From positions 63,639-127,638 of the forward strand of contig NZ_GG703821.1 in the NCBI RefSeq assembly GCF_000156395.1: a DNA stretch of 64,000 bases, read 5' to 3'. Below the pieces are notes generated by a model. That model saw nothing but the letters and a program-made list of their open reading frames with translations. It did no database searches and was not told the origin of the DNA. Shown piece by piece: positions 22,861-42,253 of the stretch (its first letter is position 1; each line of letters begins with the position of its first letter). Origin of the DNA: Providencia rustigianii DSM 4541 (GTDB lineage Bacteria > Pseudomonadota > Gammaproteobacteria > Enterobacterales > Enterobacteriaceae). Both the position numbers and the translations under genes were made by a program.

Positions 22861-23313
22861 TTATTTAACTTCAGGGCTGTGTCTATCAATAAGCTCCTGC
22901 AAAATCTGTTTTAACATTTTACTTTTTCGTGTACCTAAAGGTGCTAATACTAATTTTTCATGCTCTTCAGCCGCCACTAATAATCCTTCCACTAAAGCAA
23001 CTCCGCTTGATGTCACACTGACTAGTGTAACCCGGCGATCGCTGCCTGTATGGTTATTATGACGGATAACATGCCCCTGCTGTTCCAATCGTTGCAGCAC
23101 TCGTGTGATAGTCGGTTGCTTACTGACAGTTTTTTGGGAAAGTTCAGTTATCCCCATCGACCCATTATTCGCCAACGTCGACAATACTCGCCACTCCAAT
23201 ACTGATAGCCCATGGGCTTCGACCACCGCATGAAATTCAGATGATACAAGCATCCACGCCTGCCCCAATAGGGCAGGCAGATAATTATCCACGAAAACTT
23301 TTGATTCAGGCAT
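22861..23313 (-). CDS. MarR-family transcriptional regulator of the catabolic operon
   Basis: 150-residue MarR-type winged-helix protein starting at the ATG at 23313 behind GAGGAACTG; the frame extends to 23391 without a ribosome site. The DNA-binding region is LSVLEWRVLSTLANNGSMGITELSQKTVSKQPTITRVLQRLEQQGHVIRHNNHTGSDRRVTLVSVTSSG (about residues 32-100). It is the last gene of the iorA-maiA operon, 85 bp after maiA. MarR proteins usually repress aromatic catabolic genes until a ligand such as an aryl-CoA binds; that role is likely here but inferred. Confidence 0.88.
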   Translation of the reverse strand: MPESKVFVDNYLPALLGQAWMLVSSEFHAVVEAHGLSVLEWRVLSTLANNGSMGITELSQKTVSKQPTITRVLQRLEQQGHVIRHNNHTGSDRRVTLVSVTSSGVALVEGLLVAAEEHEKLVLAPLGTRKSKMLKQILQELIDRHSPEVK

Positions 23314-23398
23314 CAGTTCCTCATGTTTAGCTTCAAGTTTAATCACACTGGAAGCTAGCAGAGTAGCAGAAGGAAACCTAACTCTTAACATAATTTAA

Positions 23399-24154
23399 CT
23401 AAAACTTTCCGCTAAGTAATGAACCGAAACCATCCACGCGGGTATCCAGCCCCAGCTTCTTCAACATCATGTAAGTGGTTGCTACCGATGATGATAAAAC
23501 AGGTAGCCCGACTCTATCTTCAATTAATTGAATTGACGGCAAAGAGGGCATTTGGACACAAGCTGAGGCAACGATGACATCCACATTGGTATTGAGTTTT
23601 TTAGTGATCTCCACTGGCGCTAATGGATTTTGTCTTCCCACTTCAAGATTGTCAGGAATTTCGAGAGAAATACTGTCAACAACCTCAATACCTTCACTTT
23701 CAATGTAATCAATCACCAACTGAGTTAACGGCTTCATATATGGCGTTAGGATAGAGACTTTTTTCGCCCCAATCGCATGTAGCCCATCAACCAATGCCCC
23801 TGCACTGGTGACAACCGGAGCTGGATGACCATTATCGATGGTACGTTCGTGAAGGCGCTTTTCCGATATACGGTGATAACCTTTTCCCATACTCATGATC
23901 GCAACTAAGCAAGCGTAGCCTAAAACATCAACATCTGCATCAGAGAGCTCAATCGCACAGCGGTCACTGTCAAAATCCATTTTTGCCAGCTCATCTTTGG
24001 TCACTTTTTGCATACGCATACGACTGGAATGAAATGTAAAACGTTCGGCAAACATCGCTTCACGGGCACGTAAAATCGCCGGAATCTCTGTTTCCATTGT
24101 CGTGTTGGATGAAGGCACTATCTGCCCAATACGAAAAGTGCGCGCTAAAGTCAT
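23399..24154 (-). CDS. maiA: Maleate cis-trans isomerase
   Basis: 251-residue enzyme of the Asp/Glu racemase superfamily that converts maleate to fumarate. Nearly all of the maleate isomerase (MaiA/NicE) signature is present: RIGQIVPSSNTTMETEIPA at the start, FTFHSSRMRM, DVLGYACLVAIMSMG with catalytic Cys82, and VIVASACVQMPSL with the second Cys at about 199. In the nicotinate pathway NicE acts after the maleamate amidase NicF. Here its start overlaps the stop of the nitrilase-superfamily gene (ATGA). This is the final step of the proposed pathway, delivering fumarate to the TCA cycle. Confidence 0.94.
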   Translation of the reverse strand: MTLARTFRIGQIVPSSNTTMETEIPAILRAREAMFAERFTFHSSRMRMQKVTKDELAKMDFDSDRCAIELSDADVDVLGYACLVAIMSMGKGYHRISEKRLHERTIDNGHPAPVVTSAGALVDGLHAIGAKKVSILTPYMKPLTQLVIDYIESEGIEVVDSISLEIPDNLEVGRQNPLAPVEITKKLNTNVDVIVASACVQMPSLPSIQLIEDRVGLPVLSSSVATTYMMLKKLGLDTRVDGFGSLLSGKF

Positions 24155-25182
24155 AGTCCTTTCTCCAAAGATTGCTCATCTGCTTCGGCAAATTGGTTCA
24201 ATTCATCCACATTCTGCCCACTATCATGAAAACGAGCTGCAGTCAGTGGGCGACGATTAACCTGTAAATCAAAGATATCAAAGCGGTTATAATGCCCCGT
24301 AATATCGTGCATCTGACGTGGCTGAATACAGCGATTTAAATCAATTTCACCATAAACAATCCCTTCTTTATCTATCAGTGGTTCACCCACTACGCGTCCA
24401 TCTGGACCGATAATGCCGGAAAATGCACTATTAGGACGCGCGAGCAATTCACGAGATTCCGGATGAGAATCTGCCATCGCCTCAATAATTTCATCAGAAA
24501 CTGTTGAACAAGAAACAACGGTGAACACTTTCCCTTCAAAGCAGTGTGCCGACGCTCGTAGGCGAATGGCCTCTGCCATGTCGTAATCTTTTGGCGCAAC
24601 GGGTAAAGCGATATAACTCGCGATATGCACCAACTCCCCTTGAGCCAATAATGAGAAACGTGCCAACGTATTGGTATTCTCCCCACAAGCCAGCGCGCCC
24701 AAAGGACCAATACTGGTTTGGTGGACTTTTAGTGACGACGCATCCCCATTTGCCCACGTTAATTTCTCAGCCCAAGTCGGAACTAATTTACGGTGGCGAC
24801 CGAGAATTCGCCCTTCATCCGAGATAGTCACAAGGGTGTTGTACAAAGTAGCAATTCCGTTGGGATTACGTTCATTCACCCCAATCACCACATTAATATG
24901 GTGACGAGCCGCAGCTTGCGCAATGCGCTTAATTTCTGGCCCCGGAACTTCAATCGCTGATTTGCACAGTTTTTCAAACCATGGACTACCATCGATAGGG
25001 TTCATCACCCAGCTCCAATAAGGGTAACCAGAAACAAAAACCTCGGGAAATGCCACTAACTTAGCCCCGTTATCTGCCGCTTCTTCGATTAACCGGCACA
25101 CTTTGTCAACCGTTGCATTGGTATCGAGGAAAACAGGCGCGGCTTGTACCGCCGCCGCCTTAAACTGAGGTAGATTTAACAT
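24151..25182 (-). CDS. Nitrilase-superfamily C-N hydrolase
   Basis: 343-residue carbon-nitrogen hydrolase. The catalytic triad is visible: Glu47 in LVAFPEVFVSGYPYW, Lys132 in GRHRKLVPTWAEKLTW, and Cys166 in GALACGENTN. Overall the sequence is that of branch-1 nitrilases (nitrile to acid plus ammonia), with GENTN in place of the usual WEN-type residues after the cysteine. It overlaps maiA by 4 bp and follows the FAA-hydrolase gene by 18 bp. In this pathway the chemistry needed is hydrolysis of maleamate to maleate and ammonia, so it may work as an amidase. A nitrilase acting on an aryl nitrile is the alternative. Confidence 0.88.
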   Translation of the reverse strand: MLNLPQFKAAAVQAAPVFLDTNATVDKVCRLIEEAADNGAKLVAFPEVFVSGYPYWSWVMNPIDGSPWFEKLCKSAIEVPGPEIKRIAQAAARHHINVVIGVNERNPNGIATLYNTLVTISDEGRILGRHRKLVPTWAEKLTWANGDASSLKVHQTSIGPLGALACGENTNTLARFSLLAQGELVHIASYIALPVAPKDYDMAEAIRLRASAHCFEGKVFTVVSCSTVSDEIIEAMADSHPESRELLARPNSAFSGIIGPDGRVVGEPLIDKEGIVYGEIDLNRCIQPRQMHDITGHYNRFDIFDLQVNRRPLTAARFHDSGQNVDELNQFAEADEQSLEKGL

Positions 25183-25200
25183 ACTTTTATCTCCCTTGGG

Positions 25201-26112
25201 TTATACCGCAACCACTGGATGACGTAGCTCACCAATTTTTTCCACGTAAGCTTCAATCACATCTCCTGGCCATACCCACTCTTGTGGAGAACGCCCAGCA
25301 CCAACACCCTCAGGAGTTCCCGTAGCAATGATATCTCCCGGCTCTAACGTGATACCTTTGCTGATATCTGCAATTAATGCGTTAACATTGAACAGCATAT
25401 GACGAGTATTGGAATCTTGTTTAGTCACGCCATTCACTTTCAGACTCAAATTAAGGGAATGAGGATCGGGAATTTCATCTGCGGTGACAATGCAAGGGCC
25501 AAACGGCGCATAGGTATCTTGCCCTTTCGAGTAAATCCATTGGCCTGCACGGCGGCAATCACGCGCACTCATATCGATCATGAGGCTATAACCAAACACA
25601 TAATTCAGTGCGTCTGCTTCAGAAACCCCTTTTGCACGCGTTCCCATAATCACCGCTAATTCCACTTCCCAATCTAATTGCTGCGTGATCTGGCTGTTAT
25701 GCTCAATCGCATCACCCGGCCCAATCACCGTTGTTGGCGGCTTAGAGAAAATAACAGGCTCTTTAGGTAATTCTTTCGAGGTATCCAAAGTACGGCTAGA
25801 CTCAGCAACGTGTTCAACATAGTTCAGGCCGATCCCGAAAATATTTTTTCTTGGACGTGGAATTGGCGCTAAAATTTTTACGTTCTGTACTGGCCATGCA
25901 GTTCCCGCAGGGAATTGACCTTTATGTGCGTTTAATAATTCAGTACCTGCACGGATCCCTTGAGGGCCTAAATCAATAAATTCCAACATATTGTCTGGTA
26001 AATATTGGCCGTTTTCTTCAGCAAGTCTGGCTAAATCAACTACTTGGTTATCAACGATCGCACCTAAACGTGCTGCTGCGGTAACATCTGAACGGTAAGT
26101 AATAAGACGCAT
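25201..26112 (-). CDS. Fumarylacetoacetate hydrolase-family ring-fission product hydrolase
   Basis: 303-residue FAH-family enzyme. The metal-binding acidic residues appear in QQLDWEVELAVIMG (Glu149, Glu151) and FGYSLMIDMSARD, and the family core in IFGIGLNYVEHV, TTVIGPGDAIEHN and GDIIATGTPEGVG. Next to a gentisate-type dioxygenase it should cleave the ring-fission 3-oxo acid (maleylpyruvate, or its amide maleamylpyruvate) to pyruvate and a C4 acid. A downstream maleate isomerase with no glutathione-dependent maleylpyruvate isomerase in sight fits direct hydrolysis to the cis C4 product. Confidence 0.9.
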   Translation of the reverse strand: MRLITYRSDVTAAARLGAIVDNQVVDLARLAEENGQYLPDNMLEFIDLGPQGIRAGTELLNAHKGQFPAGTAWPVQNVKILAPIPRPRKNIFGIGLNYVEHVAESSRTLDTSKELPKEPVIFSKPPTTVIGPGDAIEHNSQITQQLDWEVELAVIMGTRAKGVSEADALNYVFGYSLMIDMSARDCRRAGQWIYSKGQDTYAPFGPCIVTADEIPDPHSLNLSLKVNGVTKQDSNTRHMLFNVNALIADISKGITLEPGDIIATGTPEGVGAGRSPQEWVWPGDVIEAYVEKIGELRHPVVAV

Positions 26113-26180
26113 AATTCTTCTCCTTGTGTCAGGTCGATATGCCTGACTGAAATCTTCACGTAAATAGTTAGAATAAATAA

Positions 26181-27308
26181 TTAGCCAATAACTTTTTGGT
26201 GCCCGTCATTTTCCACTAATGCCTCTTCATAATAGAGGCCAAGGGAGTTCATCACTGGCAGGTCGTTAAAACAGAATAAGCAAGCATCCTCACTTTGCGA
26301 GGTATTCACATGCTCATGGAACATCCATGACGGCACACAGAAAATATCCCGCTCTTGCCAGTCAAAGCGTTGCCCATTGATAACCGAATAACCCTTTCCT
26401 TTCGCTACTTGGTAAATAAAGCTGCCTGTATGGCGATGGGCTTTACCCACAAAACCTGGGCGCAGCAGCTGCATACTCGCCCCAATCGTTGGCATCACTG
26501 GTCCCCCGGTTAGCGGATTGGTGTAGTGCATCAGCACATCATCAAAGGGTGAGCCCTCACTAACTTTTACTGCACGTTGTAGCGCTTCATAAGTCGGTCC
26601 CCATTGATACTTGAACAGGGGTGAATAAGGCTTATCCCAACCAATATGCTGTGGGCGCAATGCCGTTCCGCCCCACATACCCACTGGGTAATCAACCGGA
26701 CGAGTCTGTACTTGGTTTAAATCTGGATGCACTTTATAAAAGCCGGCTTCCATCGCATTGACTAGTGGAATGTCGAGCCCATCTTGCCAAATACACGGTA
26801 AGCCATCCTCTGCAACACCATGCTCATGCCAAGTTCCATTCGGTGTCAGCACAAAATCATTGGCTTCTAGCATCATTTTTTGCCCTTCCACAATGGTATA
26901 AGCTCCACGCCCTTCCATAATGAAACGCAATGCTGATGAAGAATGCGCATGTGCTGAGGCCGCTTCTCCTGGATGCATAACTTGTAATCCGGAATACAAC
27001 CAACCCACCGCTGCCGCGACATCTTGACGACCAGGATTATTGAGATAGATAACCCGGCGGCCAGCTTTTTCTGGCGTCACTAAATCCACTGAACGTAAAA
27101 CATGTTCCCGTAAATCTTGGTAGCGCCATAACACGGGCATCGACTGGGATTTTGGCTGCCATGGCTCAATCTTGTTAGCAACCGTCCATAACGCGCCGGT
27201 TTTTAATTCATCTAATTGCTTGTAATACGCCAACAATTCAGGAGTGTCGGCCACATCTGCGCGTCCTGCGACATTTTCTCTATACTGTTCATGGGACTGA
27301 GTTGTCAT
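26181..27308 (-). CDS. Gentisate 1,2-dioxygenase-family ring-cleavage enzyme
   Basis: 375-residue double-cupin Fe(II) dioxygenase. The N-terminal cupin holds the metal histidines in ASAHAHSSSALRF (His120, His122) and TPNGTWHEHG (about His161). The C-terminal cupin has KAHRHTGSFIYQVAKGKG and CVPSWMFHEHVN. The family opens gentisate or 5-substituted analogues between the carboxyl- and hydroxyl/amino-bearing carbons. In this operon the likely substrate is gentisate or 5-hydroxyanthranilate, made by the upstream CoA-ester hydroxylase and thioesterase; sequence alone does not decide. Slightly longer than many gentisate dioxygenases (about 340-350). Confidence 0.92.
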   Translation of the reverse strand: MTTQSHEQYRENVAGRADVADTPELLAYYKQLDELKTGALWTVANKIEPWQPKSQSMPVLWRYQDLREHVLRSVDLVTPEKAGRRVIYLNNPGRQDVAAAVGWLYSGLQVMHPGEAASAHAHSSSALRFIMEGRGAYTIVEGQKMMLEANDFVLTPNGTWHEHGVAEDGLPCIWQDGLDIPLVNAMEAGFYKVHPDLNQVQTRPVDYPVGMWGGTALRPQHIGWDKPYSPLFKYQWGPTYEALQRAVKVSEGSPFDDVLMHYTNPLTGGPVMPTIGASMQLLRPGFVGKAHRHTGSFIYQVAKGKGYSVINGQRFDWQERDIFCVPSWMFHEHVNTSQSEDACLFCFNDLPVMNSLGLYYEEALVENDGHQKVIG

Positions 27309-27337
27309 CGGTTTTAGCTCCTATATAGCTAGCGCAA

Positions 27338-29653
27338 TTAGCGACTTTTCGATTGTTGGATCAATTGCTGGCGACCATATTCATATGGCGCAGGCCAATT
27401 TACGGTATTCCATCCAAAGCGAGCACATTCATGAAGTAACCAAGCAGGGTCAGCAAGCAATGGACGAGATAGAGCACAAAGGTCTGCACGCCCTGAAGCG
27501 ATAATGCTGTTGACCTGATCCGCATCAGTGATTGCACCAACAGCAATCACTGGAACCGAACCTTCATTACGAATTCGATCTGCTATTGGAGTTTGGTACA
27601 TGCGCCCATAAACAGGTTGTTGCAGAGGCGAAACTTCGCCCGACGAACAGTCAATGATGTCAGCACCAGCTTGGTGTAAAGCTTTCCCAATCAAGACCGC
27701 TTCATCAACCGTGGTGCCGCCCTCAACCCAATCGGTTGCAGAAATACGTACTGAAAGCGGCTTACCCTCTGGCCATACTTTTCTTACTGCACTCACCACT
27801 GCCAATGGGAAACGTAAGCGATTTTCCAATGAGCCACCGAAACCATCGGTACGTTGGTTCGTCAATGGCGAAATAAAGCTGGATAATAGATAACCGTGCC
27901 CTGCTTGCAGTTCCAACCAGTCAAATCCAGCCTGATCCGCGCGCTTTGCCGCCGCAACAAATTGGTCAATTATTATTGCCATTTGCGCTTCAGTCAGTTC
28001 CGCAGGCGTATCTGAAATGTTCGGTAAGTAAGGTAATGGTGAGGCAGAAACCAGTGGCCAATTACCGTGTTTCATTGGATGATTTTCTTGTTCCCAGCCA
28101 CGTTGAGTGGAACCTCTACGCCCTGCATGACCGAGTTGAATTCCAATTTTTGCATCCGTTTTTTGATGCACAAACTGAGTCACATTTTTCCATGCAGCCA
28201 CTTGCTCATCGTTCCAAATTCCTGGGCATCCCGTTGTCACCCGAGCCTCTGGAGAAATTGCAGTCATTTCAGTCATGATCAGGCTCGCACCGCCAAGAGC
28301 ACGGCTCCCGATATGGACTAAATGGAAGTCACTGACAACCCCATCGGTTGCGCAATACAATAATGTTGGTGAGGCAATCACACGATTTTTCAATTCCAAA
28401 TCACGCAAACGATAAGGCGTTAACATCGGGGCGATTTTTTGGTTAGTGACATTCGTAGGTAATCCTGATTTTTCGGCAAACCAGTTTTCGTAATCCGTTA
28501 ACCAACTGCCATCGCGAACGCGTAAATTTTCGTGGGAAATACGCTGAGAGCGGGTCAATAATGAATAAGCAAATTGCTCTGGGTCGAGGTTTTCATAGCG
28601 CTGAACATTTTCAAACCACTCAGTTGAGTTACGTGCCGCATTTTGGATTTTCAATACTTCAACACTACGAACTTTTTGGTAATGCTCTAAGCCTTTGCGC
28701 AAATCACCCTGAGTGGTTTTTAAACTTTCACACAACTCGATAGCGTCTTCCAATGCAAGCTTAGTTCCTGAACCAATTGAGAAATGTGCGGTATGGGCAG
28801 CATCTCCCATCAGTACGACAGGTACGTCTTTGTTTTCAGCTGGTTGAGTCCAATGCACCCACTTATCACAAATAACACGAGGAAAACGGATCCAAATGGC
28901 GGCACCACGCAGATGAGCAGCATTAGCCATCAATTTTTCCCCATCAAGCCATGGCGCAAACAGTTTTTCACAGTAAGCGACGCCATCCTCTTGGGACATT
29001 TGGTCAATACCGGCTTTTAACCACGTTTCTTCCGTCGTTTCTACGATAAATGTAGAAAGTCCATCTTGGAATTGATAAGCATGAACTTGGAACCAACCAT
29101 GTTCATTTTCAGCAAAAATAAAGGTAAATGCGTCGAAAATCTTTTTAGTTCCTAACCAAACAAAACGGCAACGACGCTGATCGATATCCGGTTTAAAGAT
29201 ATTTTCATAACGAGTGCGTACCGCGCTGTTGATCCCATCTGAAGCAATGACTAAATCGGCGTTATATTGGCGAGCAATTTCTTGGTCATCTGTCACTTGA
29301 GTTTCGAACACCAGTTCTACGCCCACTTCAAGACAACGATCTTGCAAAATATTGAGTAATTTTTTACGCCCGATCCCGATAAAACCGTGTCCACCACTGC
29401 GATTACAGCTACCTTTAAAATGAATGTCGATATCATCCCAATGGCTAAACTCTGCGCTGATAGTTTCTGCTGAAACAGGGTCTGCTTTGCGTAAATTGCT
29501 TAATGTGGCATCCGAGAACACCACACCCCAACCAAAGGTGTCATAAGGGCGGTTACGTTCAACCACCACAACACGATTTTCTGAGTTCTGTAATTTCATC
29601 AGCAACCCGAAGTAAAGCCCTGCGGGACCGCCGCCGATACAAACGATATTCAT
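27338..29653 (-). CDS. Bifunctional anthraniloyl/salicylyl-CoA 5-hydroxylase with OYE-type reductase domain
   Basis: 771-residue fusion. Residues 1 to about 390 form a class A FAD monooxygenase (GGGPAGLYFGL at 7-17, GWGVVFSD, GDAAHTAHFSIGSGTKLA near 280). Residues about 405-760 form an old-yellow-enzyme FMN domain (LKNRVIASPTL, GIQLGHAGRRGS, AGHGYLLSSFISPLTNQRTDGFGGSLENR). The architecture is that of 2-aminobenzoyl-CoA monooxygenase/reductase and of proteins annotated salicylyl-CoA 5-hydroxylase/oxidoreductase, which hydroxylate C5 of the CoA ester. The neighbouring thioesterase and gentisate-type dioxygenase indicate that the hydroxylated ring is released as a free acid and cleaved. The role of the OYE half in an aromatic-product pathway is unclear. 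Confidence 0.92.
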   Translation of the reverse strand: MNIVCIGGGPAGLYFGLLMKLQNSENRVVVVERNRPYDTFGWGVVFSDATLSNLRKADPVSAETISAEFSHWDDIDIHFKGSCNRSGGHGFIGIGRKKLLNILQDRCLEVGVELVFETQVTDDQEIARQYNADLVIASDGINSAVRTRYENIFKPDIDQRRCRFVWLGTKKIFDAFTFIFAENEHGWFQVHAYQFQDGLSTFIVETTEETWLKAGIDQMSQEDGVAYCEKLFAPWLDGEKLMANAAHLRGAAIWIRFPRVICDKWVHWTQPAENKDVPVVLMGDAAHTAHFSIGSGTKLALEDAIELCESLKTTQGDLRKGLEHYQKVRSVEVLKIQNAARNSTEWFENVQRYENLDPEQFAYSLLTRSQRISHENLRVRDGSWLTDYENWFAEKSGLPTNVTNQKIAPMLTPYRLRDLELKNRVIASPTLLYCATDGVVSDFHLVHIGSRALGGASLIMTEMTAISPEARVTTGCPGIWNDEQVAAWKNVTQFVHQKTDAKIGIQLGHAGRRGSTQRGWEQENHPMKHGNWPLVSASPLPYLPNISDTPAELTEAQMAIIIDQFVAAAKRADQAGFDWLELQAGHGYLLSSFISPLTNQRTDGFGGSLENRLRFPLAVVSAVRKVWPEGKPLSVRISATDWVEGGTTVDEAVLIGKALHQAGADIIDCSSGEVSPLQQPVYGRMYQTPIADRIRNEGSVPVIAVGAITDADQVNSIIASGRADLCALSRPLLADPAWLLHECARFGWNTVNWPAPYEYGRQQLIQQSKSR

Positions 29654-29682: not shown

Positions 29683-30105
29683 TTACACAGGTTGCTGCTG
29701 GGTTAAGGCGCTATACAGTGCATCAGGAATAGGGATCGCCTGATGCGTGATAAGAGATGTCGTGACATAGGTTTGAGTCACTTGCATACGTAATTCACCG
29801 TCGAGGCTGATACAACGTTGGCACAGAGTCAGTGATTTACTTCCTATACGCTCAACTTGTAGCTCTAGCTGGACATCATCCCCCATACGGCTAATCGCTT
29901 TAAAATCGGCTTCTAAATGAACGGTTGGTAAACCAAAACGCTGGTCGAGAATGTAACCTGCAAATCCTTCAGGAAGCAGCTCATCGAACCAACGTTCAAT
30001 CAAGTTGTTAAACATCACGAAATATTGTGGGTAAAACACGATCCCTGCGGGGTCACATTCTGAAAAATGAATCCGATGTTCCCGTGAAAATTTCAGTAAG
30101 CTCAT
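29683..30105 (-). CDS. Acyl-CoA thioesterase (4-hydroxybenzoyl-CoA thioesterase family)
   Basis: 140-residue hotdog-fold thioesterase, the same length as 4-hydroxybenzoyl-CoA thioesterase. The catalytic aspartate is in HFSECDPAGIVFYPQYF (Asp18), followed by the helix NNLIERWFDELL. The start is the ATG at 30105, after AAGGA and 10 bp behind iorB; a longer frame overlapping iorB lacks a ribosome site. It probably hydrolyses the 5-hydroxylated aryl-CoA (5-hydroxyanthraniloyl-CoA or gentisyl-CoA) made by the adjacent hydroxylase. Confidence 0.9.
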   Translation of the reverse strand: MSLLKFSREHRIHFSECDPAGIVFYPQYFVMFNNLIERWFDELLPEGFAGYILDQRFGLPTVHLEADFKAISRMGDDVQLELQVERIGSKSLTLCQRCISLDGELRMQVTQTYVTTSLITHQAIPIPDALYSALTQQQPV

Positions 30106-30115
30106 GATGTTGTCC

Positions 30116-33833: not shown

Positions 33834-33944
33834 TTTAACCTCACCAGTCAACGTCAGACCGTTTTTATCTTTTTTGTGTTTCTTTCTTGTATCCCATTTG
33901 TTAATAATTGGTCAATGCATGATTAATCATGGATATTAGATTTT

Positions 33945-33979
33945 TGCAGAGAGTGGATAGGAGATGCATGTAATGGACA
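33945..33979 (+). promoter_or_regulatory. Tandem XylS-type operator near iorA
   Basis: Two direct half-sites of the form TGCA-N6-GGNTA spaced 20 bp apart: TGCAgagagtGGATA (33945-33959) and TGCAtgtaatGGACA (33965-33979, one mismatch). This matches the binding motif of the XylS/BenR/AntR branch of AraC regulators. The site begins about 110 bp upstream of the iorA start but is oriented towards the activator gene. Confidence 0.65.
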
Positions 33980-34294: not shown

Positions 34295-34318
34295 TGCATT
34301 ATCTGGATAGTTTTTGCA
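34295..34318 (+). promoter_or_regulatory. XylS-type operator upstream of the activator gene
   Basis: TGCAttatctGGATA (34295-34309) matches TGCA-N6-GGNTA exactly, and a second TGCA follows at 34315-34318, 20 bp from the first; the second half-site is otherwise weak. The flanked stretch CATTATCTGGATAGT-N3-TGCA is shared with the operator in front of the SDR gene (42219-42253). It is 236 bp upstream of the activator start and points towards it. Confidence 0.65.
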
Positions 34319-34554: not shown

Positions 34555-35562
34555 ATGTTGAGCAACTCATGGCCTTATACACCGGCACCTCAGATAGAGA
34601 ATCAACTCTGCTCTTCTGAACGATTATTGTTTAGTTCTACGGATCCTGAAGAAATTAAATCTATGGTGGGAAGAGTGATGAAACCCCATGATTTTAAATT
34701 ACTTAATCAACATCAAAGGCTTGATGCCCGAATGCATTACATTCCGATGGGGGATATTTCTCTCAGTCGGTTACGTTATGGTGCCGATGTCGCTATCACT
34801 CCGGGGCAACTCGAAGATTTTTTTCTCGTGCAAATGCCGCTATCCGGTAGTGCCACGATCGAAAGTGGCGGGAAAAGTATCGAATCTACGCCACACATGG
34901 CTTCTTTGCTCAGTCCTGAAGAGTCAACGGTGATGCGCTGGAATGGGGATAACGACCAGTTTATGTTGCGTATTTCGCGTTCTTTACTTGAACGTAGTTT
35001 AGTTGGCCAGCTTGGGCATACGTTAGATAAGCCTTTAGTTTTTGAATTGGGATTTGCGTGGCAATCTTGCATTGCGTGGCGCACCTTGATGAATTATCTG
35101 ATTGAGTGCGCAACGAGAACCCCTGATTTGCTGCAACATAAATTGATTACCACCCAGGTTGAGCAGTTAGTTTCCGTGACCTTATTATCGACCCATCAAC
35201 ATAACTATCTAGAAGATTCTGGTATGCGCCGAGCCACGATCCGCCCACGTCATGTGCGCCGTGTTCAGGAATATTTAGAAGCACATGCTCATGAGCCCAT
35301 TACGGTTGAGCAACTCGCTCATATTGCCGGTGTGAGTTTGCGCAGTTTATACGCTGGCTTTAAAGAGTTTTTGGATATCAGCCCAATGCAATATTTACGG
35401 GATTTGCGCATGGAGCGAGTCCGTTCTGAATTGATGTCAGGGGAAGCCACCAGCGTGACTGGCGTTGCGTTGCGTTGGGGATTTGCGCATATGGGCCGTT
35501 TTAGTGCGGAATATAAACAACGCTATGGGGAAACACCGAGCCAAAGTATGAAAAAGGCTTAG
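34555..35562 (+). CDS. AraC/XylS-family activator of the catabolic island
   Basis: 335-residue regulator. The N-terminal ligand domain (about residues 25-220; DISLSRLRYGADVAITPGQLEDFFLVQMPLSGSATIE) is the type found in XylS, AntR and AndR. The C-terminal AraC domain reads YLEAHAHEPITVEQLAHIAGVSLRSLYAGFKEFLDISPMQYLRDLRMERVRSELM, followed by VTGVALRWGFAHMGRFSAEYKQRYGETPSQS. It sits between the two catabolic operons, and the XylS-type operators in its promoter region and before the SDR gene make it the probable common activator. The ribosome site forms a short palindrome GGAGGCACCTCC. Confidence 0.9.
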   Translation: MLSNSWPYTPAPQIENQLCSSERLLFSSTDPEEIKSMVGRVMKPHDFKLLNQHQRLDARMHYIPMGDISLSRLRYGADVAITPGQLEDFFLVQMPLSGSATIESGGKSIESTPHMASLLSPEESTVMRWNGDNDQFMLRISRSLLERSLVGQLGHTLDKPLVFELGFAWQSCIAWRTLMNYLIECATRTPDLLQHKLITTQVEQLVSVTLLSTHQHNYLEDSGMRRATIRPRHVRRVQEYLEAHAHEPITVEQLAHIAGVSLRSLYAGFKEFLDISPMQYLRDLRMERVRSELMSGEATSVTGVALRWGFAHMGRFSAEYKQRYGETPSQSMKKA

Positions 35563-36047: not shown

Positions 36048-36944
36048 TTAAAACGGAATGGAGGCTTTGAGGTAAATCTGTGAACCTTCAGGGCGGTTTT
36101 CAACTGCAAAATCTTTTTCCCACTTGGCAGTAAATAACCAACCTTGTGGATTTGCGTAGCGAATTGACGGTCCGACGGCAAAGGCTTGTGCCTTGCCTTG
36201 TGCCGAGTTTGGCCCGCTATCATTGGTAGTTTGCATAAAACCATATCCACCAATCCCCGCGACCCAGCCATTACCGAACCCCCAGCCTAGGGCATAATCC
36301 GCATGGAAAGCTTGCCCCGAACGTGTATCCGTATCGTTATTGCGGAAGTTAAAGTCATACATCATTTTTAAATCCGCATTCACACCCACAGGTGGAATAT
36401 AGCTAATCGCCCACACCGGCTGTAATGCCCAGTAATTCTTACCTAAACTTGATGGGTCAGTTTTACTGTATTTTCCTGTTGGCGCATAGGCATCCAATCC
36501 CACCACATAATGTAAGTCAGCAGAAGGATGAAAACCTAAAGCGGGACCGAATGTGATATCCCCTAATCCTCGGCTAGTTTCTTTATTTCCAGCGGCTTTT
36601 GCCGTGACATCCAGTAAAGGAATAATGGTATGAAAGGCAAGATCGCCACCAAACACTTTTTGATCGGTAACCCAGATAAGGCGTGGTGCTAATACGTTAA
36701 CATTGACGCTAAATCCGGGAATAGGAATTTTGTCACCTTTATTATCACGAACGCTGTCGTAATGGGCATTTCCACCGTACATCAGGACATGCACACCCTG
36801 CGGTGGCAGCGCCCCTGACATAAAGTTTTCCAACCCATCAGGGTAGATCCCAAGACCGCCCCCTTCCGTTGCGACAGCACCAAATGACAGTGCACCTAAG
36901 CACGAGCCGACGAGAAGCTTATTGACCATTTCTTTATTCATCAT
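36048..36944 (-). CDS. Outer-membrane protein of the phenol-degradation (MetA/SphA) type
   Basis: 298-residue protein with a signal peptide (cleavage near FGAVA). The rest is rich in short amphipathic beta strands ending KDFAVENRPEGSQIYLKASIPF, the pattern of the Phenol_MetA_deg family (start GGLGIYPDGLENFMSGALPPQGVHVLMYGGNAHYD). Such beta barrels accompany aromatic-degradation operons and are thought to admit hydrophobic substrates. Last gene of the upper operon, 93 bp after the FAD oxidoreductase gene; probable uptake channel for indole or a derivative. Confidence 0.87.
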   Translation of the reverse strand: MMNKEMVNKLLVGSCLGALSFGAVATEGGGLGIYPDGLENFMSGALPPQGVHVLMYGGNAHYDSVRDNKGDKIPIPGFSVNVNVLAPRLIWVTDQKVFGGDLAFHTIIPLLDVTAKAAGNKETSRGLGDITFGPALGFHPSADLHYVVGLDAYAPTGKYSKTDPSSLGKNYWALQPVWAISYIPPVGVNADLKMMYDFNFRNNDTDTRSGQAFHADYALGWGFGNGWVAGIGGYGFMQTTNDSGPNSAQGKAQAFAVGPSIRYANPQGWLFTAKWEKDFAVENRPEGSQIYLKASIPF

Positions 36945-37037: not shown

Positions 37038-38651
37038 TTACCGCTTTTTTTTCGCTGCTAATTTCTCAGCAACTAAATACCCTGAACCCCCGCCAAGGCC
37101 GGGACCCGGATGCGTTGAAGCTCCAATATGGAATAAGTTTTTGACCGCGGTTTGATGGGCTTTGGTTTGCCCTGATGCCGCAAAAGGTCGTAACCAGAAG
37201 AATTGGTCAGGGGAACAGGTTCCTGAATAAGGATCACCACCAACCAAGTTACAGTTGTAATTTTCCAGATCCGCAGGGGAAATTGCCTTGCGACCGATAA
37301 TTAATTGAGAAAAACCTGGCATCACCGTTTCCAGACGTCGCTGAATACGATCGGCTACTGCCTCACGAACCGTTTCATTCCAACGCCCATCTTCCGGAAT
37401 TTCGATCTCTCCCGCTGCATCACCTTTTAAGCGACGTGGAAGTTCCTGCATTTGTATCCACAGAATCCATCCACCTTCAGGTGCGCGGCTCGGATCTAAC
37501 GTTGTCGGCTGACCAATACCAAATGTCGGTTTATTGGGTAGATAGCCATTGTTGGCTTGAGTGACCGATAAGCAGACTTGCTCCATGCTTTCGGTAAAGT
37601 GAACTAATGGAACGTTGAGTAGTTCAGGGTTGCACCATGGTGGAGGCGCACTCAGCGCAAAATGAATTTGCATTCCGCCACGTCCATAGCGGTAGCCTTT
37701 CGCCCGTTGCTGAACTTGCGGAGAAACCTCATCGAGTAAAGATCCATATAATTGAGTCGGAGTCACATTGCACACCACACTTTCGTTGGCATGGATCACT
37801 TGCCCATTAACGCTAACACCGACAGCGCGGCTATTTTTGCCACTACCTTGGGTGATAATTTTTTCAACATGGGTTCCTGTGCGCAACTCTCCGCCATGTT
37901 GTTCAATGACCTTGGCAAAGGCTTCGACAATGCGATAGCTGCCGCCTTTCACCACCGGCATTCCACCAGCGACCACTGCCGCAAATGTCAGTTTGCCAAT
38001 TAATGCGGAGCTGGCTTCATCAGGCCCTAATCCCGTATGTAATACCCATGGGGACATTAATGCGCGACTAAAATCATGTTGAAGTTCACGCTCAGACCAA
38101 CGCCGAAAACTTTCCACACCCGATTTTGCGAAATCAAGCAGCCCATCGACCCCCCGTTTACGCCACTCAGAAAACAGTAATTTGAACATTCCACCGCTGT
38201 ACGGGTTTTGTCCGAGTAAACCAAACGTCAGTGCCGCATCTTCGCTAAACAGTTTTTCTGCCATTTTGCGAAACACTAAACCGTCACCGGGAGCAATAGC
38301 ATCCAGCTGTTTTGCGGCTTCGCCAATATCCCGTTTTAAGGCAATAGACTGACCATCTGGCTGCACTAATCCTGTGGAATAGTCACATTGTGCAAATTCC
38401 AGTCCATGGGGTTTTAAATATGGTTCTAACTCTTGATAACCCGGGCTACCAACAAACAGTGAATACCAACAGGAAAGGAGGTCGTGGGTATAACCGGCAA
38501 ACAGTTCTTCGGTACGAATACAGCCGCCAAGGCGGTCATTACGTTCCAGTACCAATACTGATTTTCCGCGCACCGCTAATAAAGCGGCACACATCAGCGA
38601 ATTCATCCCACTACCCACGACAATCACTTGGGGGTTAGATAAGGTTGCCAT
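37038..38651 (-). CDS. Phytoene-desaturase-like FAD-dependent oxidoreductase
   Basis: 537-residue flavoprotein of the NAD(P)/FAD-dependent phytoene dehydrogenase/amine oxidase type. The dinucleotide-binding start is VIVVGSGMNSLMCAALLAVRGKSVLVLERNDRLGGCIRTEE (about residues 8-48). A substrate-side motif KGGSYRIVEAFAKVIEQHGGELRTGTHVEKI lies in the middle, and the C-terminal FAD motif FHIGASTHPGPGLGGGSGYLVAEKL near 510-530. No carotenoid genes are nearby. Three bp after the cyclase gene, it probably dehydrogenates an indole oxidation product, for example dioxindole to isatin; that step is inference. Confidence 0.87.
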   Translation of the reverse strand: MATLSNPQVIVVGSGMNSLMCAALLAVRGKSVLVLERNDRLGGCIRTEELFAGYTHDLLSCWYSLFVGSPGYQELEPYLKPHGLEFAQCDYSTGLVQPDGQSIALKRDIGEAAKQLDAIAPGDGLVFRKMAEKLFSEDAALTFGLLGQNPYSGGMFKLLFSEWRKRGVDGLLDFAKSGVESFRRWSERELQHDFSRALMSPWVLHTGLGPDEASSALIGKLTFAAVVAGGMPVVKGGSYRIVEAFAKVIEQHGGELRTGTHVEKIITQGSGKNSRAVGVSVNGQVIHANESVVCNVTPTQLYGSLLDEVSPQVQQRAKGYRYGRGGMQIHFALSAPPPWCNPELLNVPLVHFTESMEQVCLSVTQANNGYLPNKPTFGIGQPTTLDPSRAPEGGWILWIQMQELPRRLKGDAAGEIEIPEDGRWNETVREAVADRIQRRLETVMPGFSQLIIGRKAISPADLENYNCNLVGGDPYSGTCSPDQFFWLRPFAASGQTKAHQTAVKNLFHIGASTHPGPGLGGGSGYLVAEKLAAKKKR

Positions 38652-38654
38652 ACC

Positions 38655-39437
38655 TCACCCCACCAGCGCTAGCACACGCAATGGGCTACCCGAACCACCT
38701 TCAATTTTCAGTGGTGCCGCGACAATCACGACCCCAGTGGCTGGTAATTTATCGAGATTTTTTAAGCATTGCAGACCATATTTATTATTACCATGCATCA
38801 AGGTGTGGCATGGATAGGGAATTGGCCAGCCATACGATTGACCAGCATCCGTATTGATTGTTTCAACGCCAAAACCTTTAACATTACGCTGATGAATCAG
38901 CCATTCCACCGCCTCTTGTGAAGGACCCGGAGTATGGGCACCATCTTCACGCATGTTCACATAGGCTTCTGGATTGTCAGATTTTTTAGACCAATCCGTG
39001 CGTAATAGTACCCATGCCGCTTGGGGAATTTTGCCGTGTTTTTCTTCCCACTTTTGTAAAAAATCCACCGTCAGTACCCAGTCTGGGTTTTGTGCCACTT
39101 CTTTACTCGCATCCACCACCACAGCAGGAGCGATGAAGTTTTTTAGCGGAATGGTATCTACCGTATTATTGGGTTGGTCTTTGCCACTAACCCAGTGAAT
39201 AGGCGCATCAAAGTGGGTCCCAGTATGCTCTCCACAGCTAAAATTGTTCCAATACCAACCCGGACCATTTTCATCGTAGCGTGAGATTTGCTCCATCTTA
39301 AATGACCATACTTGCCCAAACTCAGCAGGTAGCTGTAACGCAGGAAATGAAGGCGATAAGGTTTGCGTCAGGTCAATAATTTGAATATTGCCTTTTTGTA
39401 ACTCACTGGCGAATGACATCAAAGTTTGCTGTTCCAT
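38655..39437 (-). CDS. Cyclase-family metal hydrolase (isatin hydrolase / kynurenine formamidase-like)
   Basis: 260-residue protein of the cyclase family with the metal motif HTGTHFDAPIHW (His71, His75, Asp77, His81). Isatin hydrolases and kynurenine formamidases share this fold and motif. Related proteins occur in known indole-oxidation clusters next to a StyA-like oxygenase and flavin reductase. Likely reaction: opening of the lactam ring of isatin to isatinate. A direct dioxindole-to-anthranilate conversion, reported for an Acinetobacter homologue, is the alternative. Stop is 3 bp before the next start. Confidence 0.88.
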   Translation of the reverse strand: MEQQTLMSFASELQKGNIQIIDLTQTLSPSFPALQLPAEFGQVWSFKMEQISRYDENGPGWYWNNFSCGEHTGTHFDAPIHWVSGKDQPNNTVDTIPLKNFIAPAVVVDASKEVAQNPDWVLTVDFLQKWEEKHGKIPQAAWVLLRTDWSKKSDNPEAYVNMREDGAHTPGPSQEAVEWLIHQRNVKGFGVETINTDAGQSYGWPIPYPCHTLMHGNNKYGLQCLKNLDKLPATGVVIVAAPLKIEGGSGSPLRVLALVG

Positions 39438-39451
39438 ACTCTCTCCTGCGC

Positions 39452-39988
39452 TTATTGCGCTTCATGTAGAGCGGTAAATGAACCGCTGTGGAAAACTAAA
39501 GGCTTACCGGTTTCACTACCGATGCGACGAACATGACCCACCATCAATAAATGATCTCCGATATGATCTTGTTTGTGGTTTTCACAAACTAAGGTCACTA
39601 ATGCCCCATGTAATGCGGGAATACCCTCTGGAGTGATGTGGATTGCCACATCGTCAAACTTGTTTTCAATGCGCGGGTTAGCAAAACGCATTGCAAGCTC
39701 TTGGTGATCTTTCCCCAAAATATTGATGGTGAAATGCTGGCAATCACGAAATACCGCAAGGTTTGGAGAGTGATTGACTAAGCTCCATAGCACCAACGGT
39801 GGATCCAAAGAGAGTGATGCAAATGAGTTGATGGTTAGCCCCACATCACGCCCGTCTGCCGTGCGCGTGGTTACAATTGCGACCCCAGTTGGGTAGCAAC
39901 CCAATAAATTGCGTAAGGTTTTTGATTCAAATTCGGTATGACCCCATTCGCTATCACACATGAGCGTATCCTCTGCAATCATCGACAT
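39452..39988 (-). CDS. Flavin reductase component of the indole monooxygenase
   Basis: 178-residue flavin reductase (split-barrel FMN/FAD family). Motifs are LRNLLGCYPTGVAIVTTRTADGRDVGLTINSFASLSLDPPLVLWSL (about residues 26-71) and FTINILGKDHQELAMRFA, with VGHVRRIG near the end. AGGAG precedes the ATG. It follows the StyA-like oxygenase gene by 10 bp and supplies reduced FAD to it, as StyB does for StyA. Confidence 0.92.
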   Translation of the reverse strand: MSMIAEDTLMCDSEWGHTEFESKTLRNLLGCYPTGVAIVTTRTADGRDVGLTINSFASLSLDPPLVLWSLVNHSPNLAVFRDCQHFTINILGKDHQELAMRFANPRIENKFDDVAIHITPEGIPALHGALVTLVCENHKQDHIGDHLLMVGHVRRIGSETGKPLVFHSGSFTALHEAQ

Positions 39989-39998
39989 ACTGATTCTC

Positions 39999-41246
39999 CT
40001 ACGAAGCGCGAACTTCTTCTTGCATCAACGATTGAATATAAGTATCGCAGGCATGGGCATCGTGCCACCATGGCGCAAGTACGGGTGGGTAGTTAAAGGC
40101 GTTTGCGACAGTGTGAGCTAAAGCTGGTAATTGTTGCGCTGCACCTAACACGTTAAGAACATGGGGCTCTGGTGGTGCTAACAGTGCATTTGTCCACTCC
40201 ACCACATGGCGACCGTATTTCCAGAATTGTTCGAATGTTTCGTTCATCCACTGTGCGGTATATGGCTTGTCGCCGTGGGCGAGTATCGCGTCATAGTAAA
40301 CTTTGCAGGCTTTAGTGGCGTTGTTAGAACCTTGGCCCGTTAATGGATCATTGGTGACTAATGCATCGCCGAGTCCAAACACAATTTTGCCTGATGGCAG
40401 AGTCAATACGGGCTTGCGTACCGTTGGAGCAAAGCGTCCGGCTAAGATGCCATTTTCATCGGTTAATTCCACATGCTTGCAACGTTCAGCTTCCCACGGT
40501 AAATAGGTTTCAATGATCTTTTTGCTGTATGCCAGATGCTCTTGCGGTGTACGCGCCTCGCCCCATTGATCCATCGGTCCACCCGGTACACCTTCAAATA
40601 CCATGATGTGACAATCGCCGCTGTTGGTCAGAGATGGGAAGACAAAGTATTCGCCAACACCTGGGATCAAGTTGAAGGAAACTTGGGAATATTCAGGGGT
40701 TGGCAACATGCCGTGAACATAGGTCAGAGCCAGAGCACGTTGGGGTTTATCATATGGCGAGCGAGAAGGATCGCGCTCTAGTAGCTTCACAATTTCCCCT
40801 TTACCACCCGCAAGGATCACCAAATCGTGGGTTTCTGCTAAACGTTCTAATTCGGCAACGCCAACATCTTCGATACGCAAATCACCGCCACGGGCAGCAA
40901 ACAGCTCCATCCAATACGGCATTTTGATGCGCTGATCCACCGCTTGCGCATAGTTATCTAAACGGGAGCGCCAAGTAATGGCTTTTTCACCCGGTTTTTC
41001 TGGATGGGGAACCGTAAAACCAATCCCTTCGACAGGTGGACATTTGTCTTCCCAGAAGTTGATCCCTAAATCGCGCTCAAATTGTAGCGAGATATCAAAC
41101 ATGCATTGGCTGGACATCACGCGGCCATTTTTGACATCATCTGGGGTTCGATTGGTGGCAACAGTAACTTCATAGCCTTTATCTAATAGCCCTAATGCCA
41201 ATGGCATACCCGCCTGACCACCACCTACGATTGCTATACGACGCAT
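39999..41246 (-). CDS. StyA-like FAD-dependent indole/styrene monooxygenase
   Basis: 415-residue two-component flavin monooxygenase of the styrene monooxygenase family. It begins RRIAIVGGGQAGMPLALGLLDKGYEVTVATNRTPDDVKNGRVMSSQCMFD. The second half carries GKIVFGLGDALVTNDPLTGQGSNNATKAC, the FAD-binding GD motif region. Its length equals StyA (about 415). StyA-type enzymes epoxidise styrene and also indole, and homologues start indole degradation in Acinetobacter and Cupriavidus. No styrene-oxide isomerase or phenylacetaldehyde dehydrogenase gene is nearby, whereas SDR, cyclase and reductase partners are, so indole is the likelier substrate. Confidence 0.92.
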   Translation of the reverse strand: MRRIAIVGGGQAGMPLALGLLDKGYEVTVATNRTPDDVKNGRVMSSQCMFDISLQFERDLGINFWEDKCPPVEGIGFTVPHPEKPGEKAITWRSRLDNYAQAVDQRIKMPYWMELFAARGGDLRIEDVGVAELERLAETHDLVILAGGKGEIVKLLERDPSRSPYDKPQRALALTYVHGMLPTPEYSQVSFNLIPGVGEYFVFPSLTNSGDCHIMVFEGVPGGPMDQWGEARTPQEHLAYSKKIIETYLPWEAERCKHVELTDENGILAGRFAPTVRKPVLTLPSGKIVFGLGDALVTNDPLTGQGSNNATKACKVYYDAILAHGDKPYTAQWMNETFEQFWKYGRHVVEWTNALLAPPEPHVLNVLGAAQQLPALAHTVANAFNYPPVLAPWWHDAHACDTYIQSLMQEEVRAS

Positions 41247-41281
41247 AGTTGTTTCCTCGATGAGATTAAAATAACGGTGTC

Positions 41282-42067
41282 TTATTCAGCAAGACGGGGA
41301 ATTGCGGGTTTAGCCTGTTCAGGCCCCATAGCGGAATAACCGCCATCGACAGCGTAATCTGCGCCAGTCACGAAACTCGCCAGATCAGAAAGTAGGAATG
41401 CGACCACTTGAGCAACCTCTTCAGGGTCGCCAACACGTTGTAAAAGGTGATAATCCGCTGCGACGCGGTCAGTTTTTTGGCGGTCGCCGCCCGTAATTTC
41501 ATCCATCACGCGAGACCATGTCCAGCCCGGAGAAACTGAGTTCACTCGGATGCCATCTGGCGCATAGTCCATGGCTTGGCTGCGAGTGACTTCCAACATG
41601 GTGGCTTTCGATGCGGGATAGAGCCAACGACCTGTTTGCGCAACCGATGAGGAGATACTGGTAAAGTTAACAATGGCGCCTTTTTCAGCATTGGCTAAAT
41701 GCGGTTTAGCAAACTGCGCGGCCATTACTGCACTGACCACATTGATATTTAAAGCCGTTAACCAATCTTGACGTGAAGATGCTTGACCGTCATCCAGATA
41801 GGTCGCGGCCAGATTAACCAAAAAATCGAGTTGCCCATATTTTTGCGCAACGCGGTCAATTCCTTGTTTGAGCTGCTGATCATCGGTGATATCTACCGGT
41901 AAGAAATCGATATTAGGCTCTGACTGAGCCACCTTTTCACCGTTAACCTTATCGATATCGAAAATGGTAACTTTGACGCCATAAGAACATAATATTTTTG
42001 CCACTGTTGCGCCGATTTTAGTTGCGCCACCCGTGACAATGGCAATTTTGTTATTCAAACCTTTCAT
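41282..42067 (-). CDS. Short-chain dehydrogenase/reductase of the indole operon
   Basis: 261-residue classical SDR starting at the ATG at 42067 after GAGGG; the longer frame to 42112 lacks a ribosome site. It has TGGATKIG for NAD(P) binding (about residues 12-19), the NLAA segment, Ser138, and the catalytic YPASK (Tyr150, Lys154). As the first gene of the operon, before the StyA-like oxygenase, it corresponds to the SDR of known indole-oxidation clusters, which oxidises the indole 2,3-dihydrodiol to an oxindole. The XylS-type operator lies 152 bp upstream. Confidence 0.9.
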   Translation of the reverse strand: MKGLNNKIAIVTGGATKIGATVAKILCSYGVKVTIFDIDKVNGEKVAQSEPNIDFLPVDITDDQQLKQGIDRVAQKYGQLDFLVNLAATYLDDGQASSRQDWLTALNINVVSAVMAAQFAKPHLANAEKGAIVNFTSISSSVAQTGRWLYPASKATMLEVTRSQAMDYAPDGIRVNSVSPGWTWSRVMDEITGGDRQKTDRVAADYHLLQRVGDPEEVAQVVAFLLSDLASFVTGADYAVDGGYSAMGPEQAKPAIPRLAE

Positions 42068-42189
42068 CGCTGTGCCCTCTTTGCTCACAATGCATTCACA
42101 AAAAATTAACATGAAGCATCATTACGCAAAACCAGCAAAAAGCTGTAGCCTATATGCGCAAAGATTATCCGCTCAGCGCGGCAATTTGA

Positions 42190-42253
42190 ATAATAAGGTA
42201 ATGATAATATTGGAGAAATAGCCACATTTTGCAGTGACTATCCAGATAATGAA
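42190..42253 (-). promoter_or_regulatory. XylS-type tandem operator and promoter of the indole operon
   Basis: Read on the minus strand, two half-sites with 20-bp period are TTCAttatctGGATA (42253-42239, one mismatch to TGCA-N6-GGNTA) and TGCAaaatgtGGCTA (42233-42219, exact). The layout closely resembles the Pm promoter operators of XylS. A candidate -10 TATTAT is at 42195-42190. Orientation is towards the SDR gene, as expected for activation. It shares CATTATCTGGATAGT-N3-TGCA with the operator at 34295-34318. Confidence 0.7.

Follow-up and report, generated by a model that had tools for sequence, protein, structure and literature searches.

Genes for a predicted complete indole catabolic route in a two-operon island of Providencia rustigianii

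Introduction

Indole is a signal among gut bacteria, and for this reason a genus that both makes and consumes it matters among them. A 64,000-nucleotide stretch of the genome of Providencia rustigianii DSM 4541 (contig NZ_GG703821.1, positions 63,639 to 127,638; hereafter the window) raises the question of whether a single gene island can carry indole to pyruvate and fumarate. From the predicted functions of its genes, we consider it probable that the island at positions 22861-42112 of the window encodes a complete aerobic indole catabolic route to these two products, with one AraC/XylS regulator controlling both of its operons. The original prediction for this DNA, made without database searches, had claimed that two operons around an AraC/XylS gene encode such a chain, that the upper half resembles the known iif/ind clusters, and that the combination with the lower half is new.

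According to a 2018 review (PMC6221969), three points were open: the gene for a gentisate-type indole route, isatin as a true intermediate, and Providencia both making and degrading indole. For each of these points the island provides a set of genes. A gentisate-type indole route was reported for an Alcaligenes in 1983.

Results

The island and the proposed route

The assembled genome comprises 4.0 Mb in 35 contigs, and the window lies within one of 193 kb. Fifteen minus-strand genes form a lower operon (22861-33851) and an upper operon (36048-42112), and a single plus-strand AraC/XylS gene stands between them. According to the list of open reading frames (ORFs) and the profile searches, every gene named below is an intact ORF of the family given, which confirms the arrangement originally described.

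22861..23391, minus strand: MarR-family regulator, last gene of the lower operon (Pfam MarR, E 1.1e-10)
23399..24154, minus strand: maleate isomerase relative, maleate to fumarate (PDB 4fq7, E 3.5e-95; Pfam Amdase)
24151..25182, minus strand: nitrilase-superfamily C-N hydrolase, predicted maleamate amidase (CN_hydrolase, E 1.2e-40; under the Nit6803 nitrilase cut-off)
25201..26112, minus strand: FAA hydrolase, predicted maleamylpyruvate hydrolase (FAA_hydrolase, E 2.7e-70)
26181..27308, minus strand: gentisate-type bicupin dioxygenase, predicted 5-hydroxyanthranilate dioxygenase (PDB 3bu7, E 3.6e-162)
27338..29653, minus strand: predicted anthraniloyl-coenzyme A (CoA) 5-hydroxylase of 771 amino acids, FAD monooxygenase half plus old yellow enzyme (OYE) half (NF006101, 1292.7 bits, cut-off 1078)
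29683..30168, minus strand: 4HBT thioesterase (4HBT_2, E 1.2e-13)
30116..31624, minus strand: IorB (NF006179, 717 bits, cut-off 348)
31635..33851, minus strand: IorA, predicted isatinate:ferredoxin oxidoreductase large subunit (TIGR03336, 281.7 bits, under the cut-off of 650.9)
34555..35562, plus strand: AraC/XylS regulator (nearest NCBIfam model AndR, 195.7 bits, under the cut-off of 350)
36048..36944, minus strand: MetA-type (Phenol_MetA_deg) outer-membrane protein (Pfam, E 1.7e-65)
37038..38651, minus strand: CrtI-like FAD enzyme, predicted 3-hydroxyoxindole dehydrogenase forming isatin (family searches; goes with isatin hydrolase and excludes DLH-SnoaL)
38655..39437, minus strand: isatin hydrolase, cyclase family (PDB 5nmp, an isatin hydrolase, E 3.7e-135)
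39452..39988, minus strand: flavin reductase (Flavin_Reduct, E 6e-34)
39999..41246, minus strand: StyA-like indole monooxygenase (PDB 7z4x, E 1.1e-172, against E 3.3e-40 for StyA 3ihm)
41282..42112, minus strand: short-chain dehydrogenase/reductase (SDR; NF006121, 404 bits, cut-off 294)

In the proposed route, the StyA-like oxygenase and the flavin reductase would convert indole to its 2,3-epoxide or dihydrodiol (step 1), the SDR would form 3-hydroxyoxindole (step 2), the CrtI-like enzyme isatin (step 3), and isatin hydrolase isatinate (step 4). Oxidative decarboxylation by IorAB would then yield anthraniloyl-CoA, CO2 and reduced ferredoxin (step 5), and because IorAB itself would supply the CoA ester, no CoA ligase is needed. 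The two-domain hydroxylase, whose reductase half with Gln583 is predicted not to reduce the ring, would give 5-hydroxyanthraniloyl-CoA (step 6), and the thioesterase would release 5-hydroxyanthranilate (step 7). The gentisate-type dioxygenase would open the ring to maleamylpyruvate (step 8), from which the FAA hydrolase would produce pyruvate and maleamate (step 9), the C-N hydrolase maleate and ammonia (step 10), and the isomerase fumarate (step 11). The AraC/XylS protein would control both operons. At the level of gene content this chain is chemically free of gaps, as had been claimed. Step 1, and the action of the SDR and the cyclase on its products, have been shown for homologues from P. 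rettgeri (PMC9871250); steps 4 and 11 have strong support from homology; and we infer steps 3 and 5 to 10, together with the regulation, from family, neighbourhood and chemistry.

Linkage of the two halves across genomes

An intact indole catabolic island is present in most Providencia species examined. Of 24 Providencia genomes, 18 have both StyA and IorA, always on one contig and at most about 12 kb apart, and both are missing from the remaining six. Because the gene order recurs in 17 other Providencia genomes, where it is identical within the stretches fetched, the island represents more than a chance arrangement. The nearest named IorA loci among the matches listed are those of Providencia rettgeri PROV023 (95%) and P. 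alcalifaciens DSM 30120 (94%).

Outside the genus, both halves lie within one locus in Xenorhabdus kozodoii. In Alcaligenes faecalis AU14 and Paenalcaligenes hominis, the indole set is about 13 and 10 kb, respectively, from a set running from isatin hydrolase to IorA. Relatives of the reductase, Rieske oxygenase, CoA ligase and thiolase of the auxin (iad) pathway lie between the two sets in Alcaligenes, which places the StyA and iad upper routes beside one copy of the proposed IorAB-hydroxylase hub; neither the Alcaligenes nor the Paenalcaligenes loci showed a maleate isomerase. Among the Pseudoduganella stretches, L173 carries SDR, StyA, flavin reductase, hydrolase, CrtI-like, MetA, AraC and CoA hydroxylase genes with a weak thioesterase match (37%), and L088 carries IorAB, C-N hydrolase, dioxygenase, FAA hydrolase and maleate isomerase. 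A neighbourhood search for joint StyA, IorAB and gentisate-type genes had been suggested. With StyA and IorA linked in 18 of the 24 Providencia genomes, and with indole and lower genes linked or close together in further genera, the objection that the operons are never linked elsewhere falls away.

Predicted steps from indole to isatinate

The iif-type trio of StyA-like oxygenase, flavin reductase and SDR is complete in the window, and the likeness to iif/ind clusters originally noted stands for these three genes. It does not extend to the IifA-type DLH-SnoaL gene, for which tblastn (E 1e-3) returned no match in the window. The survey covered 43 loci that contain a StyA relative and exceed 9 kb, several of which repeat or overlap one genome. 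Twenty-six contain the CrtI-like and isatin hydrolase genes without DLH-SnoaL, eight contain DLH-SnoaL alone and six have none of the three; CrtI alone occurs in two (Alcaligenes and Paenalcaligenes, where the hydrolase lies farther off) and the hydrolase alone in one, which overlaps the Alcaligenes stretch. None of the 43 combines isatin-type with DLH-SnoaL-type genes. Because IifA has been described as a two-domain protein with a C-terminal SnoaL domain (PMC7225977), the DLH-SnoaL gene is most likely iifA. Given this mutual exclusion, the CrtI-like enzyme most likely converts 3-hydroxyoxindole to isatin, which the hydrolase would then open. By eye, in an alignment to 5nnb, the hydrolase keeps the Mn ligands His69, His73, Asp75 and Gln219 and the catalytic His79, His207 and Asp193 (LaIHA numbering), the seven residues named for isatin hydrolase A in PMC6117287. 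Tandem pairs of StyA-like genes were seen in Variovorax-type iif clusters (L206, L207, L209, L216 and L217), and a 2026 paper separates indole from skatole monooxygenases (PMC13101512).

Seven genes of P. rettgeri GS-2 match the upper operon plus araC in families and gene numbers, a likeness that is not a sequence comparison. With indole as substrate the StyA-like GS-C gave indigo, activity was shown for the flavin reductase GS-D, and addition of the SDR or the cyclase altered the GS-C products (PMC9871250). The proposed route remains the best-supported reading, but its upper half was already published and partly assayed. From liquid chromatography-mass spectrometry (LC-MS) masses of GS-2 assigned to N-formylanthranilate, anthranilate, salicylate and catechol, Li et al. 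(2023) proposed a catechol pathway (PMC9871250). Under that explanation, the upper operon would end at anthranilate, which would proceed through salicylate to catechol, and the lower operon would serve another substrate. The masses support it. Against it, the intradiol dioxygenase profile PF00775 had no match in any of the 24 Providencia genomes, compared with 4 of 14 control genomes, and catechol cleavage thus appears to be without genetic support in Providencia, extradiol enzymes not having been searched. The Rieske profile PF00848, which matched 15 of the 24, found nothing in the window's genome and hence no iad-type oxygenase (iadDE) there. Moreover, StyA and IorA are present or absent jointly, and isatin hydrolase genes neighbour IorA. 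We regard the catechol explanation as unlikely.

IorAB and the predicted isatinate step

Isatinate is a 2-oxo acid, and the IorAB enzyme family turns 2-oxo acids into acyl-CoA. We scanned 84,980 species genomes for IorA and analysed the best 80 loci; a first ORF calling found IorA in 46 of them (a matter of high-GC loci) and its replacement in 79. The GDG...NN motif for thiamine pyrophosphate (TPP) and Cys 643, 649, 655, 679, 682, 685 and 695 are kept in all 79 aligned relatives. An isatin hydrolase relative accompanies IorA in 42 of the best 80 loci, and in 38 of the 53 that span at least 20 kb, and many of these are auxin loci; a Rieske-oxygenase cluster does so in 34 of the 80.

Because IorAB recurs beside isatin hydrolase, auxin loci included, conversion of isatinate to anthraniloyl-CoA is its likely task. 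Chemistry ties it to the same substrate, since two operon enzymes need a CoA ester and profile searches found no CoA ligase among the 15 operon genes. The family annotation would instead suit a conventional indolepyruvate or arylpyruvate oxidoreductase with no part in indole oxidation. We hold this to be very improbable: IorA falls below the cut-off of the indolepyruvate ferredoxin oxidoreductase model TIGR03336 (281.7 vs 650.9 bits), isatin hydrolase is its recurrent neighbour, and no other operon gene makes the CoA ester that the two enzymes require. A figure legend lists IorB and IorA in auxin degradation loci without a role (PMC9613470), and isatinic acid has been detected in Variovorax.

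Among 44 IorA genomes hand-picked from the best 80 loci, 43 contain a full-length CoA hydroxylase and 20 a StyA relative. The hydroxylase was found in 17 of 369 genomes of a class sample and at full length in 4 of 247 genomes of an order sample; because these samples differ in taxonomy, the enrichment is an indication only. Two loci from Actinomycetota metagenome-assembled genomes (L090 and L092) show two CrtI-like genes, isatin hydrolase, IorAB and a CoA hydroxylase of the His type described below, and a StyA relative was found in neither genome.

A glutamine in the CoA-ester hydroxylase

The hydroxylase meets the NF006101 cut-off of the ACMR/salicylyl-CoA 5-hydroxylase family and has both Pfam domains, FAD_binding_3 and Oxidored_FMN. 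However, the His-x-x-His pair of the OYE half, a mark of the ring-reducing ACMR type, is not intact, reading Gln583 and His586. At its first position, 23 of 67 distinct full-length relatives have Gln and 44 have His. A dioxygenase gene is in reach of 22 of the 23 Gln-type hydroxylases, the stretch of the 23rd (Pseudoduganella) ending near a contig end, whereas none of the 44 His-type hydroxylases has one nearby. The neighbours of the latter are ligase, hydratase or acyl-CoA dehydrogenase genes in 31 cases and other genes in five, and eight have flanks below 3 kb. The Gln counts are not independent, because about 16 of them come from closely related Providencia.

An alignment of 62 sequences (23 Gln, 39 His) yields five positions that are invariant in the Gln group and differ elsewhere: 430, 513, 583, 673 and 729. 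Each of them belongs to the reductase half. When eight other groups of 2 to 6 sequences were treated alike, 140 such positions fell in the first half and 38 in the second, with none in two groups; leaving Pseudoduganella out of the Gln group added one first-half position (199) to its diagnostic list. Because all five diagnostic positions lie in the reductase half, we predict an aromatic product, 5-hydroxyanthraniloyl-CoA. The Azoarcus enzyme is reported to yield this compound under limiting NADH (PMC3534580); a disarmed reductase half would always give it, in a form fit for the thioesterase and ring cleavage. The Gln may also retune ring reduction instead of stopping it.

The protein could alternatively be a classical 2-aminobenzoyl-CoA monooxygenase/reductase whose reduced product enters beta-oxidation. 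Membership of the same two-domain family, the second OYE His being kept in 62 of 62 sequences, and the ligase, hydratase or dehydrogenase genes accompanying His-type relatives speak for this explanation. Gln583 and the four further changes of the reductase half argue against it, as do the thioesterase and ring-cleaving dioxygenase in the operon and the lack of hydratase, acyl-CoA dehydrogenase and ligase genes among the 15. We give it little credence and retain the non-reducing hydroxylase as the preferred reading.

The tree asks for two His-to-Gln changes, with the His-type L190 and L191 branching next to the Gln rows. A single Gln clade is not rejected (p-AU 0.338), so we dropped two independent changes as a firm claim; the change appears to have arisen once or twice. 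Partial matches in G376 and G674, considered as free-standing monooxygenase halves, proved by tblastn to be full length and His-type. Two Pseudacidovorax loci (L172 and L174) have an indole oxygenase gene directly next to that of a His-type CoA hydroxylase, accompanied by genes for a hydratase, an acyl-CoA dehydrogenase and a CoA ligase; these loci are the ring-reducing counterpart of the island.

Predicted ring cleavage and fate of the nitrogen

The PDB chain closest to the dioxygenase (3bu7) is the gentisate dioxygenase of Silicibacter, an enzyme described with two iron centres. In 9 of 10 loci, three of them from Providencia, a C-N hydrolase gene neighbours that of the dioxygenase, which would fit retention of the nitrogen as an amide after cleavage. 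In the Nocardia opaca anthranilate route, 5-hydroxyanthranilate is reported to be followed by gentisate (Cain 1968, via PMC4539516), and nitrogen could likewise be lost here before cleavage, the dioxygenase then acting on gentisate as the name of its closest PDB chain would suggest. The protein, however, misses the gentisate 1,2-dioxygenase cut-off (TIGR02272, 305.3 vs 442.1 bits) as well as that for 5-aminosalicylate (275 vs 650), no deaminase is encoded in the operons, and the accompanying C-N hydrolase fits an amide formed after cleavage. Early loss of nitrogen is accordingly rather unlikely in our estimate, and cleavage of 5-hydroxyanthranilate is preferred. In the last enzyme of the route, the alignment to 4fq7 shows two Cys kept, which we take to be the active site of maleate isomerase. 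Its ORF and that of the C-N hydrolase overlap by 4 bases.

Regulation and indole supply

The pattern TGCR-N6-GGNTA, which we take to be the XylS/BenR box and which was chosen after two copies had been noticed, marks both promoter regions. Its conservation was assessed in 14 sequences, the window and 13 of the 17 other Providencia loci.

33945..33959, plus strand: XylS-type box TGCA-N6-GGATA before iorA, 14 of 14 sequences
34295..34309, plus strand: second XylS-type box, in the iorA-araC gap, 14 of 14
42146..42160, minus strand: nearer XylS-type box before the upper operon, 14 of 14
42219..42233, minus strand: farther XylS-type box before the upper operon, 9 of 14

The pattern occurs five times in the window, where chance would give a mean of 4.4, and four of the five lie in the two promoter regions, against an expectation of 0.06 there (post hoc Poisson 5e-7). 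The closeness of the species weakens the argument from conservation. A sigma-70 scan gave 18 sites against 36.5 in shuffles, a result that was not used. The island has two regulators, because the MarR gene closes the lower operon in addition to AraC/XylS; it is present in 13 of the 17 other Providencia loci, and the remaining four stretches end before its position.

All 24 Providencia genomes match the tryptophanase model TIGR02617, and none reaches its cut-off. The gene in the window's genome passes the PRK13238 cut-off, and the tryptophanase model outscores the tyrosine phenol-lyase model. Since it has this gene, the organism probably makes indole, the predicted substrate of the island. The route may serve nutrition, detoxification or the removal of a signal.

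Surroundings of the island

From conserved start regions, the in-frame ATG codons at 33833 and 42067 are the more likely starts of IorA and the SDR. G+C content is 46% in the lower operon, 48% in the upper and 40% in the flanks, and because the neighbouring RND efflux genes are equally at 48%, composition leaves import of the island unproven. ARAGORN found no tRNA genes in the window. As for plasmid carriage, a megablast of the 19.9-kb island against 72,556 plasmid records gave no match.

Between the upper operon and araC lies an insertion spot. In the window it holds a lone helix-turn-helix (HTH) gene, which is present in 1 of the 17 other Providencia loci and is outside the island gene set:

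35629-35940: HTH gene between the upper operon and araC

In L105 (6557-8767) the same gap holds ORFs judged by eye to be toxin-antitoxin-like, and in L111 (7015-11893) a chaperone-usher fimbrial set; the L114 gap is equal in size. A SoxR gene lies directly upstream of the upper operon and adjoins an RND efflux pair (together 42263-47064); SoxR is found there in 15 of the 17 other Providencia loci, and a link between redox-active indole products and efflux is possible. Elsewhere in the window, usher and fimbrial-subunit-like genes were named by eye at 14100-17909 (minus strand), and at 19899-20935 an HTH_17 gene is followed by a small ORF without a Pfam match that is PIN-like by eye, possibly a toxin-antitoxin pair. 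RelE-, HigA-, RES- and PIN-like features were recognised among the small genes.

Discussion

Taken across genomes, the lower half suggests a wider scheme that we favour slightly over its negation: a TPP/ferredoxin enzyme would turn isatinate into anthraniloyl-CoA, a His-to-Gln flavoenzyme would divert this to 5-hydroxyanthranilate for ring cleavage via maleamate, and the indole (StyA) and auxin (iad) upper routes would both plug into this hub.

Several observations weigh against the route. In G177 and Xenorhabdus budapestensis the two halves occur on different contigs. Pseudomonas gessardii carries the lower set, with StyA not found at E 1e-100. IorA also occurs in loci with a His-type hydroxylase and without a dioxygenase gene, and the Gln change may be a single event. 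The dioxygenase, C-N hydrolase, FAA hydrolase and IorA all fall under the curated cut-offs of named functions, and both boxes of the iorA-araC gap point towards araC, away from iorA. The N-formylanthranilate, salicylate and catechol masses of GS-2 are not predicted by the island route. Furthermore, isatinate can reach free anthranilate without added IorAB, because a nine-gene Variovorax set, iadC to iadK2, which by name excludes the IorAB homologues iadA and iadB, restored anthranilic acid (PMC12633357).

The Gln/His split of the hydroxylase and its association with the dioxygenase are new; the upper half is not. The claim that the combination is new holds in part: among the matches listed from the open-licence PubMed Central literature, none described the lower half, the IorAB step or the hydroxylase switch, but IorAB had already been listed in auxin loci (PMC9613470). 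If the hub is real, it would supply the missing genes of the Alcaligenes route of 1983 and suggest a role for IorAB of the auxin loci, and a single residue may serve to tell ring-reducing from ring-cleaving branches within a large flavoenzyme family. The island looks like a full side-by-side gene set leading from a signal molecule to ordinary food molecules, including steps without known genes, and E. coli would be a suitable host for assays of most steps.

Comparison with known systems

The GS-A to GS-R cluster of P. rettgeri GS-2 shares with the island, in the same order, AraC, MetA, the oxidoreductase, cyclase, flavin reductase, StyA-like protein and SDR. It differs in that the Results and Discussion of PMC9871250 make no mention of a lower operon, assign a catechol pathway and give the CrtI-like GS-O no function. 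The iif/ind/WHOP clusters of Acinetobacter, Cupriavidus and Pseudomonas savastanoi have the StyA-like oxygenase, flavin reductase, SDR, AraC/XylS regulator and MetA-type protein in common with the island; their own IifA leads to anthranilate, whereas the island has the CrtI-like enzyme and isatin hydrolase and would continue via CoA esters.

The iad auxin loci of Variovorax, Bradyrhizobium and Alcaligenes resemble the island in IorAB, the isatin hydrolase relative IadI and the MarR regulator, but have their own Rieske oxygenase, CoA ligase and thiolase, all absent from the island, which would begin at indole. With the gentisate pathway, the island shares a bicupin dioxygenase, an FAA-type hydrolase and maleate isomerase; it misses the curated gentisate cut-off, and its predicted amino substrate and amidase step set it apart. 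Finally, the ACMR pathway of Azoarcus evansii also employs a two-domain flavoenzyme on anthraniloyl-CoA, but the island lacks ligase and beta-oxidation genes and instead combines Gln in place of the first OYE His with a thioesterase and a ring-cleaving dioxygenase.

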